From Methanovulcanius yangii (lineage in GTDB: Archaea > Halobacteriota > Methanomicrobia > Methanomicrobiales > Methanomicrobiaceae), in NCBI RefSeq assembly GCF_018687785.1, contig NZ_LTBL01000001.1:1479780-1543779 (forward strand): a stretch of DNA of 64,000 bases, given 5' to 3'. Numbering within the stretch: position 1 is the first letter of the stretch; each line of letters opens with the position of its first letter. A model generated the notes under the pieces. That model was not told where the DNA came from. It made no database searches and was given only the letters and a program-made list of their open reading frames with translations. This document shows, in pieces, positions 33,108-59,290 of this stretch. The translations under genes were made by a program, and so were the position numbers.

Positions 33108-33785
33108 ATGATCCGAAAAGCAGTAACGGTTCTTCTTTTCGTCGCATGTATCGTCGCAACGGCGGCAGCGGCGGAAGGCGCCACGATTGGCGGTGATATC
33201 GGCTATTACCAGGTCAATGCCAATGTCGCGGGGGCAGAGGTCTCCTTCAACGATGATTACAAAGGTGTCACCGGGGAGGACGGCACTCTCACGGTCGAGG
33301 TCTATGTGACCGGCACGCCCTATACCACCTACTCCGTGGCAAAGGAAGGCTACGAGACATTCAACGGCGAGATCACCCGGTACCCGGCAAAGGGCGAGAC
33401 CGTCCAGCTCGAGGCAGAGCTCTCCCCGCTGACGGTCGGCGGTGACATCGGCTATTACGAGGTCGTCACCAACGTCCCCGGTGCAGAGGTCTCCTTCAAT
33501 GACGACGACAAGGGTGTCACCGGCGCAGACGGCACCCTCACGGTCGAGGTCTACGTGACCGGCACGCCGTACACCACCTACTCCGTGGCAAAGGAGGGCT
33601 ACGAGACATTCACCGCAGACATCACCGGGTACCCCGCGAAGGGCGAGACCGTCGAGCTGCAGGCCGACCTGATGATGATCCCGGTCACCCAGCCGACGAC
33701 CGAGCCGACGCAGAGTCCATTCCCGCTGGCCGGGCTTGCAGGCCTTGCTGCCATCGGTGCGGTCCTGCTCACCCGGAGAGACTAA
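33108..33785 (+). CDS. Secreted protein with two near-identical PEGA-like repeats and C-terminal anchor
   Basis: The 225 residues have a signal peptide (1-24, ending ATAAAAEG), two tandem domains of about 79 residues starting GGDIGYY and containing GAEVSFNDD-KGVTG-DGTLTVEVYVTGTPY (residues about 27-108 and 110-191), a Pro/Thr linker (PVTQPTTEPTQSP), and a hydrophobic segment with a basic tail LTRRD. The tail looks like an archaeal surface-sorting or anchor signal. The domains resemble PEGA carbohydrate-associated folds. The near identity of the repeats indicates recent duplication or gene conversion. Confidence 0.82.
   Translation: MIRKAVTVLLFVACIVATAAAAEGATIGGDIGYYQVNANVAGAEVSFNDDYKGVTGEDGTLTVEVYVTGTPYTTYSVAKEGYETFNGEITRYPAKGETVQLEAELSPLTVGGDIGYYEVVTNVPGAEVSFNDDDKGVTGADGTLTVEVYVTGTPYTTYSVAKEGYETFTADITGYPAKGETVELQADLMMIPVTQPTTEPTQSPFPLAGLAGLAAIGAVLLTRRD
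33189..33669 (+). repeat. Tandem duplication inside the PEGA-like gene, 249-bp period
   Basis: The segments starting at 33189 and 33438 both read GGCGGTGA(T/C)ATCGGCTATTA and stay highly similar for about 230 bp, including at synonymous positions. The period of 249 bp is 83 codons, so the frame is kept. Confidence 0.85.
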
Positions 33786-36075: not shown

Positions 36076-38502
36076 TTACCGCTTCTTTCTCAGGAAGGAG
36101 AATGCCCCGAAGGCCGCGACCGGCACGAGGACGAGCGGTGAGGCGGGAGTGGGTTGTGGCCCGGCTTCCTCCTCCCCGCCGGTCACATCAACAGCCGGGG
36201 TGGCTGGTGCCGGTGTGGCGGCGTCAGTGGATGCGGGGGTCACATCGGACGGTGGTGCGGTCGTTCCCACGGCTTCGGCGAAGAGGGCGAAGATAGAGAA
36301 ATGCGAAGCTTCCGCCGTGACAGTGCGGGCATCTTCGTCGACGGTCACCGGGATCTCCACCCATTCCCCGGCCTCGTCGTCATAGAACCTAACGCTCAGA
36401 TCACCGTCGAGTGCCTCCCATTCCTCCGCGGAGAGGGTGAAGGCGAGCGTGATGGACGGTGCGAATGTCGCACCTGCCGGGCTGCATTCGTAGGCGTATC
36501 CCGCAAAGCTGAACGTAGCCCCGTCAGGTACCGTGTTGACCGCGGATGCATTGATCTTCTCGATCGTGATCTCGTCCACCGGTTTGCCGTCGCCGCCGAG
36601 GGCGACCGCGCCCTGCGGGATGATCAGGGCCGCAATTCCGTCTTCTGCAGTGAATGTAGTCTCTCGCAGTACCATCCCCCCGGAGGAGGTGAGGAGCGCG
36701 CCCGTGCCGATAAAGTCGAATTCCGCTGCATTGGCTCCGCGGCCGCCGGAAGACACGGCATTGGTTACCGTGATGTACCCGGACCGTGCGACGGTATCAT
36801 CCCCGGCAGCGTTTTCCACCGTGAGCGTCACGGTGTAGGTGCCGGCGGTGGTGTAGGTATGGCTTGGGTGCTGCCCGGTGGAGGTCGCACCGTCGCCGAA
36901 GTTCCATGCCCATGTGTCCACGACTCCGGAAGTCGCATCGGTGAACTGCACGGTGAGAGGAGTCCTGCCCGATACGGGGACCGCACTGAAGCCTGCAACC
37001 GGCGGGAGCATATCGAGGCTGAATGTGACGCTCCCGGTCGCACCGCCTGTCACCGTCACGGTCTCGTTTGCCGGGGTCGCATACCCCTGTTTTGTTACCG
37101 TCACATTGTAGGTGCCGGGGGTGATGCCGGTGAGCGTCGTATTCGTCTGCCCGGTCGTGTTCACGCCGTCAATCCAGATCCATGCCGCAGCCGGTACGGA
37201 GGTGACGGTGAGGTTGCCGGACATGGGTGAGAGCGCGAAGTGAACGCTGGTTGTCGCGCCTGAGGTGACCTGCACGGACTCATTGATACCGGGCTGATAA
37301 TCGTCCAGAAGCACAGTGACGTTATGGGTGCCGGCAGCGACATTCAGGAGATTCGCCGGTGTCGTGCTTCCGGTTGACGCACCATCGAGGTAAATTGCCG
37401 CACCCGCAGGGGCGGAGGTGACGTTGATGGTGCCGGTCGGCGTCCCGGATGCATACATGATGGTATTCATGGATCGGTAATAGCTGATCGCAGGGTTGCC
37501 AGAGGCGTCGAAGGCGAGCGAGGTGTGCGTTCCGACGTATCCTTCAGCATTCACGGTGGTGTTCTGCCAGTCACCATTCCCGTCCCTCCATGCGAACTTC
37601 AGATCGGCGTTGGTGTTGTCGAAGTAGCTGATCGCAGGGTTGCCGGCGGCATCGAACGCGAGGGAGGTATATCTGCCGACATCTGTTGCATCCGCACCAT
37701 CGATGGTGGTTTTCTGCCAGACGTCCCCGTCATGCCATGCATACTTCAGGGCTCTGTTGGTGTAATCGTAGTAGCTGATAGCGGGGTTGCCGTCGCCATC
37801 GAAGGCGAGCGAGTTGAACTCGCCGACGGTCCCCGTGGCGTCAACGATGGTGGTCTGCCACGCGCCATCCCCGACCTTCCACGCATACTTCAGGTTATCA
37901 ACGCCCAGGTAGCTGATCCCGGGGTTGCCTGAGGCATCGAACGCGAGCGAAGATGAGTCCCCAACTCCCGGTACGGCATCGACGGTGGTGTTCTCCCATA
38001 CGTCTCCAGCCATCCATGCATACTTCAGGTGGCGGTTGGTTAAGTCGTAGTAGCTGATGGCAGGATTGCCGGTCCCGTTGAACGCAAGGGAGGGGGATTG
38101 ACCAACATCTCCTGCTGCATCGACGGTGGTATTCCGCCAGACGCCATCCCCGTCCTTCCAAACATACCTGACGTCATACACGGAATTGTCGTAATAGCTG
38201 ATCGCAGGGTTGCCGTCGGCATTGAACCCGAGTGAGCTGTACGTCCCCATGCCGCCCGTTGCAGCGACGGCGCTGGTCCATGCTTCTCCGTTCCACTCGA
38301 AATACTTCAGTTCCTGTGCATTGGATCGGGGGGAACTGATCGCAGGGTTCCCGTCGCCATCGAATGCAAGCGAGGTTTCATAGAAGGCAGAATTTCCTTC
38401 TTCGACGATACTGTTCTCCCAGACATAGGCCGCCGATACCGGCAGTACGAGGACGAGCAGGAGAAGAACAGTGTATACTGAAATCCGTAGAAGTGTCTTC
38501 AC
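36076..38502 (-). CDS. Large surface protein: propeller-like repeats, PEGA, PKD and C-terminal anchor
   Basis: From GTG 38502 the product has 808 residues. A signal peptide (MKTLLRISVYTVLLLLVLVLPVSA) precedes seven to eight repeats of about 48 residues (about 35-360) with SLAFDxxGNPAISYYDxTNxxLKYAW and W-x-x-T-T-V-D. Two PEGA domains follow (about 365-510: TGTINVTSAPAGAAIYLDG, GNLTVTSVPAAAWIWIDG), then a PKD domain (about 515-600: WAWNFGDGATSTGQHPSHTY), a C-terminal beta region, a Thr/Pro linker, and a sorting tail ASPLVLVPVAAFGAF ending RKKR. GAGTGAT lies 5 bases before the GTG, and the signal peptide supports this start. The repeats suggest beta-propeller blades; a role in adhesion or the cell surface is inferred. 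Confidence 0.83.
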   Translation of the reverse strand: MKTLLRISVYTVLLLLVLVLPVSAAYVWENSIVEEGNSAFYETSLAFDGDGNPAISSPRSNAQELKYFEWNGEAWTSAVAATGGMGTYSSLGFNADGNPAISYYDNSVYDVRYVWKDGDGVWRNTTVDAAGDVGQSPSLAFNGTGNPAISYYDLTNRHLKYAWMAGDVWENTTVDAVPGVGDSSSLAFDASGNPGISYLGVDNLKYAWKVGDGAWQTTIVDATGTVGEFNSLAFDGDGNPAISYYDYTNRALKYAWHDGDVWQKTTIDGADATDVGRYTSLAFDAAGNPAISYFDNTNADLKFAWRDGNGDWQNTTVNAEGYVGTHTSLAFDASGNPAISYYRSMNTIMYASGTPTGTINVTSAPAGAAIYLDGASTGSTTPANLLNVAAGTHNVTVLLDDYQPGINESVQVTSGATTSVHFALSPMSGNLTVTSVPAAAWIWIDGVNTTGQTNTTLTGITPGTYNVTVTKQGYATPANETVTVTGGATGSVTFSLDMLPPVAGFSAVPVSGRTPLTVQFTDATSGVVDTWAWNFGDGATSTGQHPSHTYTTAGTYTVTLTVENAAGDDTVARSGYITVTNAVSSGGRGANAAEFDFIGTGALLTSSGGMVLRETTFTAEDGIAALIIPQGAVALGGDGKPVDEITIEKINASAVNTVPDGATFSFAGYAYECSPAGATFAPSITLAFTLSAEEWEALDGDLSVRFYDDEAGEWVEIPVTVDEDARTVTAEASHFSIFALFAEAVGTTAPPSDVTPASTDAATPAPATPAVDVTGGEEEAGPQPTPASPLVLVPVAAFGAFSFLRKKR
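37480..38400 (-). repeat. Repeats of about 150 bp encoding the SLAFD-GNPAISYYD module
   Basis: Within the surface protein gene the block encoding AGNPAISYYD recurs about seven times at spacings near 140-150 bp (for example around 37490, 37635, 37790, 37925, 38060, 38215 and 38350). The copies are diverged but in frame, so this is a coding array, not a CRISPR. Confidence 0.8.
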
Positions 38503-43995: not shown

Positions 43996-44475
43996 TCAGT
44001 TCCCGGCGGATTTGACCGCTTCGATCAGTGCGTCGATCTTTTCCGCATCCTGCACATCCTCGGTGGTCAAAACGACCATCGCCGCGGTCGTCACACCCTT
44101 TGCCGCGAGAGCTTCTGCGAGGTGGGGGAGCGTGTCCTTCGCGGCCCCGCCGCAGGTCGCAAAGAGGACGGCGGTCTTTCCTTCGCAGCCGGCAAGGGCC
44201 TCCACGGCGCCGTTGATGGCTGGTGCCGCCCGCAGCATCCATACCGGCGTTCCGATGACGATCACATCCGACGCGGCGACATCGATCGTCGCGGGCTCGA
44301 TTTCGTCGGCCTCCCCCCTCGCCGCCCTGTAGCACCCCGTCGTGTACGCAGTCAGCTTCGAGTAGGGCTTTACCGACTTCACCTCAATGATCTCCCCGCC
44401 ACAGGCAGCCTGTACTTTCTGCGCTACGCCGCGGGTGACGCCGGTATAGGAATAGTAGATGGTGGTTATGGTCAT
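43996..44475 (-). CDS. Flavodoxin-family protein (copy 1)
   Basis: From ATG 44475 there are 159 residues: MTITTIYYSYTGVTRGVAQKV is the FMN phosphate-binding loop, IVIGTPVWMLRAAPAING the second flavin loop, and VLFATCGGAAKDTL the third. It should carry electrons as a flavodoxin. A paralogue lies at 46692-47180 with the same start MTITTIYYSY-GVTRGVA. GGGGATATGAG precedes the ATG. Confidence 0.88.
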   Translation of the reverse strand: MTITTIYYSYTGVTRGVAQKVQAACGGEIIEVKSVKPYSKLTAYTTGCYRAARGEADEIEPATIDVAASDVIVIGTPVWMLRAAPAINGAVEALAGCEGKTAVLFATCGGAAKDTLPHLAEALAAKGVTTAAMVVLTTEDVQDAEKIDALIEAVKSAGN

Positions 44476-44673
44476 GGTCTCATATCCCCTTTTTTGCGTT
44501 TCCTCCCACGTTCCCGGCAAAATGGCTCTCAGAAGCATATTTTTCTGCAGGATACCTGCCGCAGTGGAGCGGGGCCGCACCATTCGGTAACGGGAGTACT
44601 GTTTGACGGGATATAAATGCTCCGCGAAACCACGGGACCTGCACCTCCACCGGCGGCGCAGGGCCGGTCGGGG

Positions 44674-46691: not shown

Positions 46692-47180
46692 TTAGCAGGT
46701 GCTCCCGTCGGCGGCCCTGACCGCCGCAACGAGGGCATCGATCCACGCCGGGTCGGAGACATTACTCTTGGTGAAGACGAATTCGCCTGCGACCCGCACC
46801 TGCTTTGCCGAAAGCGCCCGAGCAAGAATCGGGAGCGTATCCCTCGCCTGCCCGACGCAGGTCGCAAAGAGAATCGCGGTCTTCCCGCTGCACCCGGCAA
46901 GCGCCTGCACGGCGGCGTTCACGGGCGGCGCCGGGTGCGAGGCCCAGACCGGCGTCCCCAGCACGATCACGTCCGACCCCGCGACATCAATAGTTGCAGG
47001 CTCGATCACGTCAGCCCTCCCCTTCCGGGCCCGCCTGGCCCCCGACAGGAACACGGACAGCTGCGAATACGGCGCAACGGGCCGGACCTCGACGAGCTCG
47101 CCGCCGCAGGCGGCATGGACCTTCTCCGCCACCCCGCGGGTGACGCCGGAGTAGGAATAGTAGATGGTGGTTATGGTCAT
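46692..47180 (-). CDS. Flavodoxin-family protein (copy 2)
   Basis: From ATG 47180 there are 162 residues. MTITTIYYSYSGVTRGVAEKVHAACGGELVEVR, IVLGTPVWASHPAPPVNAAVQALAG and ILFATCVGQARDTL follow copy 1 closely, so the two are paralogues. The C-terminus differs (FVFTKSNVSDPAWIDALVAAVR). It should bind FMN. It lies at the edge of the AT-rich patch. Confidence 0.88.
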   Translation of the reverse strand: MTITTIYYSYSGVTRGVAEKVHAACGGELVEVRPVAPYSQLSVFLSGARRARKGRADVIEPATIDVAGSDVIVLGTPVWASHPAPPVNAAVQALAGCSGKTAILFATCVGQARDTLPILARALSAKQVRVAGEFVFTKSNVSDPAWIDALVAAVRAADGSTC

Positions 47181-47539
47181 TTTTTCTCTCCTCTCTGTGG
47201 GACGCACCGCATATAGGATCTTCTTGGTGGGACTTATCCAACTGATAGGGTTAGAGGTCAGTACGATGAAGATACTGATCGGGTATCGGTTTGGTGGGAA
47301 ATAATGCTTCCTCAGGACAATTTCGAGATGAGGTTTAATTAATCTCGAGAATTATACGGGATTACCACGAGAGAGTACGAAACCCTATGAAAAAGGCATG
47401 GCACTGATAAAGTTGCATAGAGATCGATCAGATTTAAATACAAAATCCAATATTTAATTAACCGCATTTAGTATTTGGGCCAAGATGATTCTATAATTTT
47501 CGAGCATTATTCTAAAAATGTATATATTATATCAACAAC
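47181..47539. other. AT-rich intergenic region, left edge of accessory patch
   Basis: The 359 bp have a sharp drop in G+C compared with the flavodoxin gene. They contain only A/T runs, TATA-like sequences (TTTAATTAA, ATATATTATATC) and a short TCGAGAT/ATCTCGA inverted repeat near 47325-47353. No gene or element end was found. Confidence 0.5.
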
Positions 47540-48517
47540 TCATTCAGCAGGATTCGGAGCAATTTTGATGGGTTTAATCCCTACTTGCTTAACAAATGAC
47601 CGTCCATTTTGATTTTCAATAATTTTTACTGCTGTCGTTCCAGAGAACGTATGTGTTGTCGAGTGATATATGGATAAAACCAAATCCTGTAATCTCTGAT
47701 CTGATTCCAAATATTCAATAATTAAACCAATTTCTTCTGCTTCATTCCTGTCTATGTGATAAGAATGACTTTTAAATTTGGTATGATCAGATAAATTATT
47801 GGCCACATTCTGAGCCTTTTGTATTGCCTCGGGCCTATCGGGGATTTCAGAAAACATATATTCTGAGAGCCAGCTGCAAACAAGCTTTTTTGATAAATCT
47901 AAGTGTTCCTCGCATTGAATAAGGATACCCGGTGCATACTGCTGGAGAATTGGTAACCAAGCGGATAATTTGGAGGGATCAGCACATTCTGTTTTTGCTT
48001 TTTCAAACTCGTCCATTAGGGCTTGAGCAGGTACTGCTCTAGAATTCCCATTTGAAAACAATATCATTTGGGGATCGGTTGGACCTAGAAATGAATGCTT
48101 TCCCATCATGATTTTATTTGAAGCACAAGCTAGCATAGTAGCAGCAGACATAGCAGCATGAGGAATGATAACTCTAATGTCATTGAATTTGGACCGTAAA
48201 TATGAAACCATTGCAGCTGTAGCCTCAGCAGAACCACCTGGGCTGTGTAGAATTATATCCAAACCTCTGCTTTCAAGGCCATGAATAACTGCCATTAACC
48301 CCTGAATATCTTCTTCATTTATGCTAATATTTGCAGGGTCAGCATTTGGAGATGGTTGAGTCCATTTTGTTGCGTATAAAATTGTGTTTCTACCGGTATA
48401 ATCAGATAATTCCTTTAAATATGATCTTCTTACGCCATCATAAGGAATGATTACTTTTCCATCTTGTTCTTCCTTCTGACTGTTTAATTGACCCAGTATT
48501 TCGCTCCAAGAAGGCAT
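47540..48517 (-). CDS. SDH-family Clp-fold serine protease
   Basis: From ATG 48517 there are 325 residues. The pattern HSPGGSAEATAAM (about 91-103) and PHAAMSAATMLACASNKIMMG (about 119-139), with S124 as the likely nucleophile, then FLGPTDPQ, is that of the serine-proteinase (SDH/SppA-like) Clp fold. It lacks a signal peptide and is probably cytoplasmic. Its codons and base composition are much more AT-rich than its surroundings, suggesting horizontal gain. The in-frame GTG at 48526 overlaps the previous stop. A 55-residue gene lies directly upstream, 9 bp away. Confidence 0.85.
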   Translation of the reverse strand: MPSWSEILGQLNSQKEEQDGKVIIPYDGVRRSYLKELSDYTGRNTILYATKWTQPSPNADPANISINEEDIQGLMAVIHGLESRGLDIILHSPGGSAEATAAMVSYLRSKFNDIRVIIPHAAMSAATMLACASNKIMMGKHSFLGPTDPQMILFSNGNSRAVPAQALMDEFEKAKTECADPSKLSAWLPILQQYAPGILIQCEEHLDLSKKLVCSWLSEYMFSEIPDRPEAIQKAQNVANNLSDHTKFKSHSYHIDRNEAEEIGLIIEYLESDQRLQDLVLSIYHSTTHTFSGTTAVKIIENQNGRSFVKQVGIKPIKIAPNPAE

Positions 48518-48526
48518 CGCTACCAC

Positions 48527-48694
48527 TCACGAAGAATTATTGCTTGAAATAATCACCAATGAGGAATATACATGATCCAAATCCGTCTGACCTGATTCAA
48601 TAATATCACTCGATTCTTTAAAAATGTCCATGATTTCTTTAATTCCAGGTTGCGCTAAGCCTTTTTGTATTAATTCTTCATGATTGAGCGACAT
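48527..48694 (-). CDS. Small protein upstream of the Clp-fold protease
   Basis: From ATG 48694 there are 55 residues: MSLNHEELIQKGLAQPGIKEIMDIFKESSDIIESG, then TDLDHVYSSLVIISSNNSS. It is helical, acidic and AT-rich. GGGG lies near the ATG. A longer frame from 48799 begins in promoter-like DNA. Tight spacing (9 bp) with the protease suggests a partner, adaptor or inhibitor; there is no recognised homology. Confidence 0.6.
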   Translation of the reverse strand: MSLNHEELIQKGLAQPGIKEIMDIFKESSDIIESGQTDLDHVYSSLVIISSNNSS

Positions 48695-48821
48695 GTCTAA
48701 ACCCCTAACATCGATAAGGTTATACATAATCTGATATAAATCCTTTGACAAAAATACAATTAAATATAATTGTGCGATGATATTAATTACCCGTACCATC
48801 AGTCAAAGGAAATCTCTGAAA

Positions 48822-48836
48822 TTCTAAAAAAAGAAT
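48822..48836 (-). terminator. T-run after the atpD fragment
   Basis: On the minus strand AATTCTTTTTTTAG follows the fragment's stop codon and resembles the T-run after the real atpD (49681-49695), so it was probably part of the duplication. Confidence 0.5.
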
Positions 48837-49072
48837 TCAGGAAGAAATCTTCGCCTTAATTTCCTTAAGGCGGACAAGTTCACCCCCCCATTTTGAGTGA
48901 TCGCATTTTGATGAAAGCAAAGGCCTCCCCCGCGTTCGGGGATGACCTTGAACTCCAGGGCATTGACACGGCGCTTCGTGCTCTCGATCTCGTCGAGGAG
49001 CCGCTTCATCGTCGTCTCAATCTCGGCGGCCCGGATGATCTCGTCGACCAGTTCCCCGAAGGCGGCCGCGGT
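48837..49072 (-). pseudogene. Duplicated 3' fragment of atpD, decayed
   Basis: This 236-bp segment is about 85% identical to 49696-49932, the last third of atpD, in the same orientation. It keeps RLLDEIESTKRRVNALEFKVIP exactly, then has a one-base insertion and a compensating one-base deletion around 48891-48935 before the ending LVRLKEIKAKISS and stop. Homology starts abruptly at 49072. It lacks a start and most of the gene, so it is a remnant. Confidence 0.9.
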
Positions 49073-49098: not shown

Positions 49099-49641
49099 TT
49101 AACTGAGAAGATTCACACTGTCAATTGTTGGAGGAGTTGTTCGTATGAGTGCCACCCGATAGTCTTCCGATGGCTCCAGAAAAAGATTGAACTGCGTATT
49201 TGCATCGAGGGGACTGGACGGTTTTGCAAATATGGTAAATACCTCCCCCGACGTGAGAGAATAATCCGCAGACGAGGTCGAATTGAGTATTGCCCATTCT
49301 CCTGAAGATATCATTGAGTCTGATGAGACCAGCAGCGGCGATGATTTGCTGAGAGTCCCATACGAATGTACGGTAGCAAATTCGACATCCACAGTACGGA
49401 AATCAATCGACTGTCCTTCCGAATTCATCAACACATTGAAGCGAATTGTCGATATCGTGCCGTCATTGTTGCCATCCAGTCCATACACATCCCCTGCTAT
49501 TTCCATACCTGGAGGGCCAAATTCTAAATTTTCATTCTGAATTGGCGTCGAACTCGTTTCACTACACCCACAACTCGTTGAAACGACAATTCCAAGAACA
49601 AAAAACGACAGAACGAGAAGCAATAATTTTCTGTGAGTCAT
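49099..49641 (-). CDS. Secreted lipoprotein with an archaellin-like domain
   Basis: The 180 residues have a signal peptide LVLSFFVLGIVVSTSCGC with a lipobox-like cysteine near residue 24 and a Ser/Thr linker. The rest resembles the archaellin outer domain: MEIAGDVYGLDGNNDGTISTIRFNVLMNSEGQSIDFRTVDVEF, then LTSGEVFTIFAKPSSPLDANTQFNLFLEPSEDYRVALIRTTPPTIDSVNLLS, like archaellin C-termini (NTxFTLEI, RT-P-x-I/S-D-x-V). It lacks the class III pre-archaellin N-terminus. It is AT-richer than its neighbours and lies between atpD and its fragment. The archaellin link rests on motif recall only. Confidence 0.68.
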   Translation of the reverse strand: MTHRKLLLLVLSFFVLGIVVSTSCGCSETSSTPIQNENLEFGPPGMEIAGDVYGLDGNNDGTISTIRFNVLMNSEGQSIDFRTVDVEFATVHSYGTLSKSSPLLVSSDSMISSGEWAILNSTSSADYSLTSGEVFTIFAKPSSPLDANTQFNLFLEPSEDYRVALIRTTPPTIDSVNLLS

Positions 49642-49680
49642 TGAAGAATGAAATACCCACCCTTCGATAAACCTTGCTAA

Positions 49681-49695
49681 ATAAAAAAAAAGGAA
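49681..49695 (-). terminator. T-run ending the ATP synthase operon
   Basis: On the minus strand TTCCTTTTTTTTTATT follows the atpD stop codon directly, suggesting operon termination before the archaellin-like gene. Confidence 0.6.
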
Positions 49696-50325
49696 TCAGG
49701 CGTTACTCTTCGCCTTAATCTTCTTAAGGCGGACGAGTTCGTCCCGTTCCATTTCGTCAAGCCGCATTTTGATGAAGGCGGAGGCCTCCTTGAGTTCGGG
49801 GATGACCTTGAACTCCAGGGCGTTGACACGGCGCTTCGTGCTCTCGATCTCGTCGAGGAGCCTCTTCATCGTCGTCTCAATTTCTGCTGCCCGGATGATC
49901 TCGTCGACCAGTTCCTCGAAGGCAGCCGCGGTCTCATCAATGACCGCGGTGGTGCCGAGCACGCCATAGCCACGCTCGGCAAGGTCCTTCTTCACTTTCG
50001 TCGCCTCGATCTCGGGGACCACGACGCCCATGATGTTCTTCTGCTTCAGGGTGAGCTCGGGCTTCTCGCGGACCGACATTGCGGCCGCCTTCACGCCGAT
50101 GGCACCCTCCACCGTGTTGGCAAGGGCGATCATCGCCTGGGCGCGGGCGTACTTGTCGCCAATCGCGTCCCGGCTGCCCTTTGCCTCCTCGAGCACCTTG
50201 AAGAACTCAAGGATCAGCCCGTCGCGCTTCATTTTCAGAATGTTGTAGCCGCGTTCGGAGAGCTTGATCCTCTTTTTCAGGTTGATCAGCTCCGAGCGGG
50301 TCGGCTTCACATCTTTCAGCGCCAT
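49696..50325 (-). CDS. atpD: A1A0 ATP synthase subunit D
   Basis: The 209 residues form a long coiled coil: MALKDVKPTRSELINLKKRIKLSERGYNILKMKRDGLILEFF at the N-terminus and IETTMKRLLDEIESTKRRVNALEFKVIPEL in the C-terminal half. It is the central stalk shaft that turns inside the A3B3 head. It is the last gene of the operon, 6 bp after subunit B. Its final third was copied at 48837-49072. Confidence 0.97.
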   Translation of the reverse strand: MALKDVKPTRSELINLKKRIKLSERGYNILKMKRDGLILEFFKVLEEAKGSRDAIGDKYARAQAMIALANTVEGAIGVKAAAMSVREKPELTLKQKNIMGVVVPEIEATKVKKDLAERGYGVLGTTAVIDETAAAFEELVDEIIRAAEIETTMKRLLDEIESTKRRVNALEFKVIPELKEASAFIKMRLDEMERDELVRLKKIKAKSNA

Positions 50326-58944: not shown

Positions 58945-59163
58945 TCACCAAAGGGTGGTAGCACCTGAAGAGGTATAAATGAATGGCATCTGTCCCGGCA
59001 CACCCCCGGCGGTCTCCGAGGTGTCGTAACTCATCGAGAGGACGGCAAAGGAGAGAAACGATGCGACGACGACCCCCACGATGAGGAGGATTGCGGCCTC
59101 GATACCCGAGAGCCCTTCCTCCCGGTCAGACCTGCTTCGCCGTTCTCCCCACAGATTTCGCAT
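58945..59163 (-). CDS. Archaellin/type IV pilin-like N-terminal mini-protein
   Basis: From ATG 59163 (AGGTGAGGTGG upstream) there are 72 residues. A basic leader MRNLWGERRSRSDREEG precedes LSGIEAAILLIVGVVVASFLSFAVLSMSY, the class III signal/archaellin pattern (G-L/F-x-G-I/L-E-A-A-I-x-L-I). The glutamate at position +5 after the expected cleavage glycine is present. The protein ends soon after (PGQMPFIYTSSGATTLW), so there is no outer D2-like domain. It may be a minor pilin or a pseudopilin-type subunit. Confidence 0.78.
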   Translation of the reverse strand: MRNLWGERRSRSDREEGLSGIEAAILLIVGVVVASFLSFAVLSMSYDTSETAGGVPGQMPFIYTSSGATTLW

Positions 59164-59290
59164 CCGCCACCTCACCTCTGCCTGATGCATAGAGGTAGCG
59201 CCCGTCAGGCATTAAAACCGGGGGTCGCAAAAAAGGCCCCCGCCCCGGCATAAGGGATAACCGGCATCACACTCATACTAATGATGAACC

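Follow-up and report, generated by a model that had tools for sequence, protein, structure and literature searches.

A predicted lipoprotein with an archaellin outer domain encoded behind atpD in Methanovulcanius yangii

Processing and assembly of archaellins depend on a class III signal peptide as well as on a long hydrophobic helix. To our knowledge, the archaellin-fold proteins described so far outside the filament are those of the ArlF/ArlG stator, which goes back to an old duplication. The window analyzed here, a stretch of 64,000 nt from Methanovulcanius yangii (contig NZ_LTBL01000001.1, positions 1,479,780 to 1,543,779), contains an open reading frame (49099..49641) whose translation is a protein of 180 aa with a lipoprotein-type signal and an archaellin outer domain. 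The original prediction gave its coordinates exactly; the gene lies on the minus strand.

The protein resembles archaellins (ArlB/FlaB; PF01917) in its outer beta-sandwich (residues ~45-180), which is 42% identical to that of the organism's own archaellin and has the same conserved C-terminal strands, but it differs from them in lacking the class III signal, the polymerizing helix, and a place in the arl operon, and in carrying a lipoprotein-type signal instead. ArlF and ArlG (FlaF and FlaG), which likewise arose from archaellin by duplication and were re-used as a putative S-layer-anchored stator (PMC8667602), would share with it an archaellin-fold domain held at the membrane under the S-layer, as is predicted for the window protein. 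By contrast, there is no sequence affinity between them (z = 2.0-2.7), and the window protein was derived from archaellin late and within a restricted lineage, and it carries a lipoprotein signal. The layout of this signal and its Cys motif are those of archaeal Sec lipoproteins with an xCGC-type lipobox. No description of an archaellin-domain lipoprotein was found in the open-access literature searched, which is weak evidence of novelty.

The N-terminus of the protein (MTHRKLLLLVLSFFVLGIVVSTSCGCSETSS) bears out the prediction of a Cys-containing secretion signal in place of a class III peptide. It consists of a positively charged n-region (MTHRK), a hydrophobic run (LLLLVLSFFVLGIVV), and the motif STSCGC; the predicted signal peptide (residues 1-25, ending in STSCG; 49567..49641, minus strand) is kept in six loci of two genera. 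TIGR02537, which represents the class III N-terminus, matches the organism's own canonical archaellin but not the window protein, and an NCBIfam search yielded no model that matched it. The long N-terminal hydrophobic helix that builds the filament core in archaellins is absent; apart from the signal's h-region, which stops at the Cys motif, the protein has no long hydrophobic stretch. A sequence of the form LLVLSxxxLGIxVST[SG]CGC is found only in the lipoprotein-signal group, whereas the canonical relatives start with GFTGLEAAIVLIAFVVVAAVFSYVVLG or variants; their N-termini include ..GFTGLEAAIVLIAF.. or a variant, which the lipoprotein-signal group alone lacks. Cys24 (49570-49572, minus strand) and Cys26 (49564..49566, minus strand) are invariant in both alignments (A2, A3). 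Cys26 is the likelier lipidated +1 residue because glycine occupies position -1, an arrangement also seen in haloarchaeal lipoboxes of the LAGC type (PMC2945643), with Cys24 as the alternative. The same xCGC ending is seen at other N-termini of lipoprotein-like appearance in the methanogen family (LACGCTTT, LSCGCTTT, AACGCTDS, TFCGCTAQ) and, as LVTCGCTGN, in an ORF of locus L004 named by eye as binding-protein-like. The charged n-region, the hydrophobic h-region, and a Cys motif of the local lipobox style match those of an archaeal lipoprotein, and membrane anchoring via a lipid on the cysteine is predicted. Upstream of the gene, ~25 nt from the start codon, an alignment of the six loci shows a TATA-like element (AAGGTTTATC; 49666..49675, minus strand), which reads AAGATATATC or close to it in the relatives and may function as a promoter.

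Alignments place a linker (residues 27-44; 49510..49563, minus strand) between the signal and the remainder of the protein (residues 45-180; 49102..49509, minus strand), which is almost certainly an archaellin outer domain, as had been predicted. The HMM search, the comparison with solved structures, and the alignment with the organism's own archaellin all agree on this point, and neither sequence profile nor structure proved unlike archaellins. PF01917 matches residues 45-157 with E = 4.2e-4 and 21.1 bits, which is under the gathering cut-off of 29.5 bits, but the cut-off is exceeded by three orthologs (G002, 29.7; G027, 35.5; G011, 38.6 bits). Alignment with the organism's own archaellin gave a score of 258 (z = 40), compared with a mean of 32.5 and a maximum of 56 for shuffled sequences. 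In this alignment, the strand NTQFNLFLEP and the terminal RTTPPTIDSVNLL, both rightly singled out as archaellin-like, pair with NTKFNLEVRP and RTTPPKIDAVNLL. The organism's own ArlF/ArlG-like proteins reach z values of 2.0 and 2.7. Searched against solved structures, a profile of five lipoprotein-signal proteins matched the archaellin 9i5h (E = 4e-14) and 7txi (1.6e-8). The AlphaFold model of the window protein is of low confidence (pLDDT 58.2, pTM 0.55), as is that of the Methanogenium ortholog (mean pLDDT 56.3, with ~66-86 per block across the greater part of the outer domain); the models rest on an alignment of four rows because the contig scan yielded just four relatives. In Foldseek, the best 22 matches of the former low-confidence model and the best 24 of the latter were all archaellins or archaellin-fold ArlF/ArlG, and structures of FlaF and FlaG were among them, indicating that an archaellin-type fold is present. 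The label "D2" in the original prediction was wrong, since archaellins of this order have only one outer beta-sandwich, to which the domain corresponds.

The filament genes that the original prediction had suggested looking for are indeed present elsewhere in the genome. The arl cluster is located at ~497-505 kb of C1 and adjoins chemotaxis genes, and the lipoprotein-archaellin gene lies outside this operon, at 1528.9 kb. The organism's own archaellin and two ArlF/ArlG-like genes are identified by PF01917 and by weak NCBIfam matches below cut-off, the ArlH-, ArlI-, and ArlJ-like ORFs and the chemotaxis genes by eye and gene order; further PF01917 matches occur at 2082.9 kb and 1873.8 kb. All six carriers of the lipoprotein gene possess arlH (G000, G002, G011, G017, G025, and G027), two genomes of these genera have neither gene (G001 and G023), and two have arlH without the lipoprotein gene (G006 and G021). 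This co-occurrence is suggestive only, because the genomes without arlH (2 of 10) are both ~80% complete and too few to establish linkage.

Related genes with the same signal number five and occur in the genus of the window organism and in Methanogenium; four of them have kept the outer domain. The ortholog in a second genome of the window genus (G002, L127) is 72% identical, and in the versions of Methanogenium cariaci (L128; 243 aa) and Methanogenium sp. MK-MG (L129; 241 aa), an additional module separates the signal from the outer domain. This insert of ~65 residues in the linker forms a small module of its own, with separate strand and helix elements in the low-confidence model. Of these carriers, MK-MG is the methanogen with which the cultured Asgard archaeon MK-D1 is grown in co-culture (PMC11316595). 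The version in G017 has an outer domain shortened by a premature stop, that in G025 (92 aa) comprises only signal and module, and G027 has an outer-domain remnant. In G017, the N-terminal module of the lipoprotein gene occurs once more, as a degenerate copy that follows another fragment of atpD (L108, 10486-10824, minus strand), which suggests a duplication of the cassette at this site. The signal region was covered by none of the other matches listed from 199 genomes of the order, and a search of IMG/VR with the lipoprotein-archaellin profile revealed no virus-borne copies.

The outer domains derive from archaellins of this lineage, perhaps through more than one capture. In nucleotide sequence, relatives from the two genera have ~70-130 nt of the 5' coding end in common and little beyond, and the outer domains of Methanogenium match archaellin genes of that genus with ~70% identity over 340-410 nt. 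In a protein tree of four outer domains, from which LIPO_G017 was omitted as a long branch, all four fall into one clade with the archaellins of both genera (95/85); the Methanogenium pair is nested inside the archaellin clade, and the pair from the window genus is its sister. The best tree calls for two separate origins of the outer domain carried by the lipoproteins, but a single origin is not rejected by the AU test (p = 0.10); the best fit would be a pair of captures, or a single one with later gene conversion. An origin from the genome's own ArlF/ArlG was rejected because of the alignment scores. Upstream of the ATPase operon lies a pilin-like gene (58945-59190, minus strand) with a class III signal (REEGLSGIEAAILLIVGVVVASFLSFAVLSM), which is truncated and has lost its outer domain; its relative in G001 is an intact archaellin-like protein of 201 aa. 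This gene was also rejected as a source, since the intact relative is the weaker match (30% identity, E = 3.7e-8) compared with archaellin at 42%. The lipoprotein-signal protein is under purifying selection, which is weaker than that on archaellin: dN/dS is 0.39 (95% 0.25-0.64) for G000 and G002 and 0.28 (0.19-0.43) for the independent Methanogenium pair, compared with 0.19 for archaellin.

In every carrier, the lipoprotein gene lies directly behind an atpD 3' end, intact or fragmentary, and is preceded by the common TATA-like stretch. In the window, it is located 54 nt behind atpD, encoding subunit D of the A-type ATP synthase (49696..50325, minus strand; PF01813, E = 1.2e-60), and is followed on its far side by a degenerate repeat, in direct orientation, of the atpD 3' end (48826..49072, minus strand), which is 85.5% identical to 49685-49932. 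At least one such fragment occurs downstream of atpD at 10 of the 22 atpD loci of the family, always in direct orientation; the 5' ends vary, whereas the 3' ends are mostly similar and lie shortly past the stop codon. Fragments are present also in single-contig genomes (G017, G012, and G014). They separate cargo genes, as seen in the window and in L107, L108, L110, L111, L112, L113, L114, L120, and L043. The pattern may reflect repeated acquisition by recombination with donor DNA carrying an atpD 3' end, in which case the newest cargo would be nearest the intact gene; site-specific integration at atpD is unsupported because the 5' ends of the fragments vary so widely. Cargo of the defense type at this site in relatives includes a Thoeris-like gene for a ThsB-type TIR (G021), SIR2-STAND (G023), and TIR-STAND (G006); methylase genes and HicB/RelE-like ORFs, the latter named by eye, also occur there. 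Right behind the atpD fragment of the window, an ORF of 90 aa comes before a gene for an SDH-type ClpP-like serine protease (PF01972, E = 1.5e-17), the two lying within 47540-48799 (minus strand); PADLOC found no match for these neighbors (47540-48526 and 48527-48799). Elsewhere in the window are two flavodoxin-like ORFs, named by eye (43996-44583 and 46692-47207, minus strand; 75% identical over 350 nt), with a nucleotidyltransferase-like and a TPR-like ORF between them, and strong direct repeats of ~240 nt (84.5%) and a set of overlapping repeats (67-72%) at 33183-33670 and 37477-38242.

The favored reading, to which we assign a probability of roughly 45% for the whole statement including its mechanism, is that an archaellin outer domain was re-targeted to the membrane and acts there as an ArlF/ArlG-like accessory of the archaellum or the envelope. 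A short lipoprotein gene behind atpD would have acquired the outer-domain sequence from an archaellin of the lineage, perhaps repeatedly, in a hotspot of gene exchange, whereby the class III signal and the polymerizing helix were swapped for a Sec/lipoprotein signal. As regards lipidation, location, and binding partner of the protein, we infer that export by Sec would be followed by lipidation of the cysteine and tethering at the outer face of the cytoplasmic membrane, leaving the beta-sandwich under the S-layer and unable to join the filament; as an optional accessory, it may bind archaellin, the filament base, or the S-layer via surfaces inherited from archaellin. A linker of only ~18 residues should keep the domain beneath the S-layer and not let it project from the cell, a position that would favor a stator-like role over those of an adhesin or a decoy. 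A stator-like or envelope accessory is favored also by the precedent of ArlF and ArlG, in which an archaellin domain was re-used in a membrane-held, S-layer-binding form (PMC8667602). The lack of sequence affinity to these proteins argues against it, as do the location outside the arl operon, the patchy occurrence with truncation in close relatives, the absence from the arlH-bearing genomes G006 and G021, the higher dN/dS (0.39 vs. 0.19 for archaellin), and the low confidence of the models.

The truncations in G025 and G017, the remnant in G027, the close relatives without the gene, and the rearranged surroundings would also be expected of a transient chimeric cassette without settled function that arose by recombination at the atpD hotspot and is now decaying. 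This is a serious rival, if an unlikely one, but the dN/dS values of both independent pairs lie clearly under 1, and the signal, the upstream TATA-like region, and both cysteines are kept across two genera. Rather unlikely is a role as an anti-virus decoy or receptor mimic, in which the lipid-anchored domain would titrate or block archaellin-binding virus proteins or hinder entry and would travel with defense genes at the hotspot. The defense-type and HicB/RelE-like cargo at the same site is consistent with such a role, as are the fast and patchy evolution and the closeness of the Methanogenium outer domains to resident archaellins; however, an archaellum-binding virus was still undiscovered according to a 2021 review (PMC7911016), the short linker would hold the domain under the S-layer, the neighbors of the window copy have no PADLOC match, and hotspots gather genes of all kinds. 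Quite improbable is a defense-linked receptor mimic in which a lipoprotein expression cassette at the hotspot would repeatedly have acquired outer domains from resident archaellins and would present them at the membrane against agents that recognize archaella. The export signal is of a membrane-anchoring type, and the longer stalk with its extra module in Methanogenium would suit a surface adhesin or sensor whose beta-sandwich binds other cells, glycans, or matrix; this is very improbable, as the window copy has no adhesin-type domain, repeat, or long stalk and would hardly reach past the S-layer. A minor archaellin or cap that still enters the filament has the smallest chance of all, since the outer domain is conserved up to the C-terminus but the class III signal and a hydrophobic alpha-1 helix beyond the signal, both required for processing and assembly, are missing.

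If the membrane-accessory reading is true, the protein would be a second case of an archaellin fold outside the filament, one that is recent and restricted to a lineage. Its route is still legible in the DNA, in the lipoprotein signal, the archaellin domain, and the relatives with and without the fusion, and it would offer a testable example of a filament protein turning into a membrane component. The locus also exposes a site of recurrent gene exchange behind atpD in this family of methanogens.
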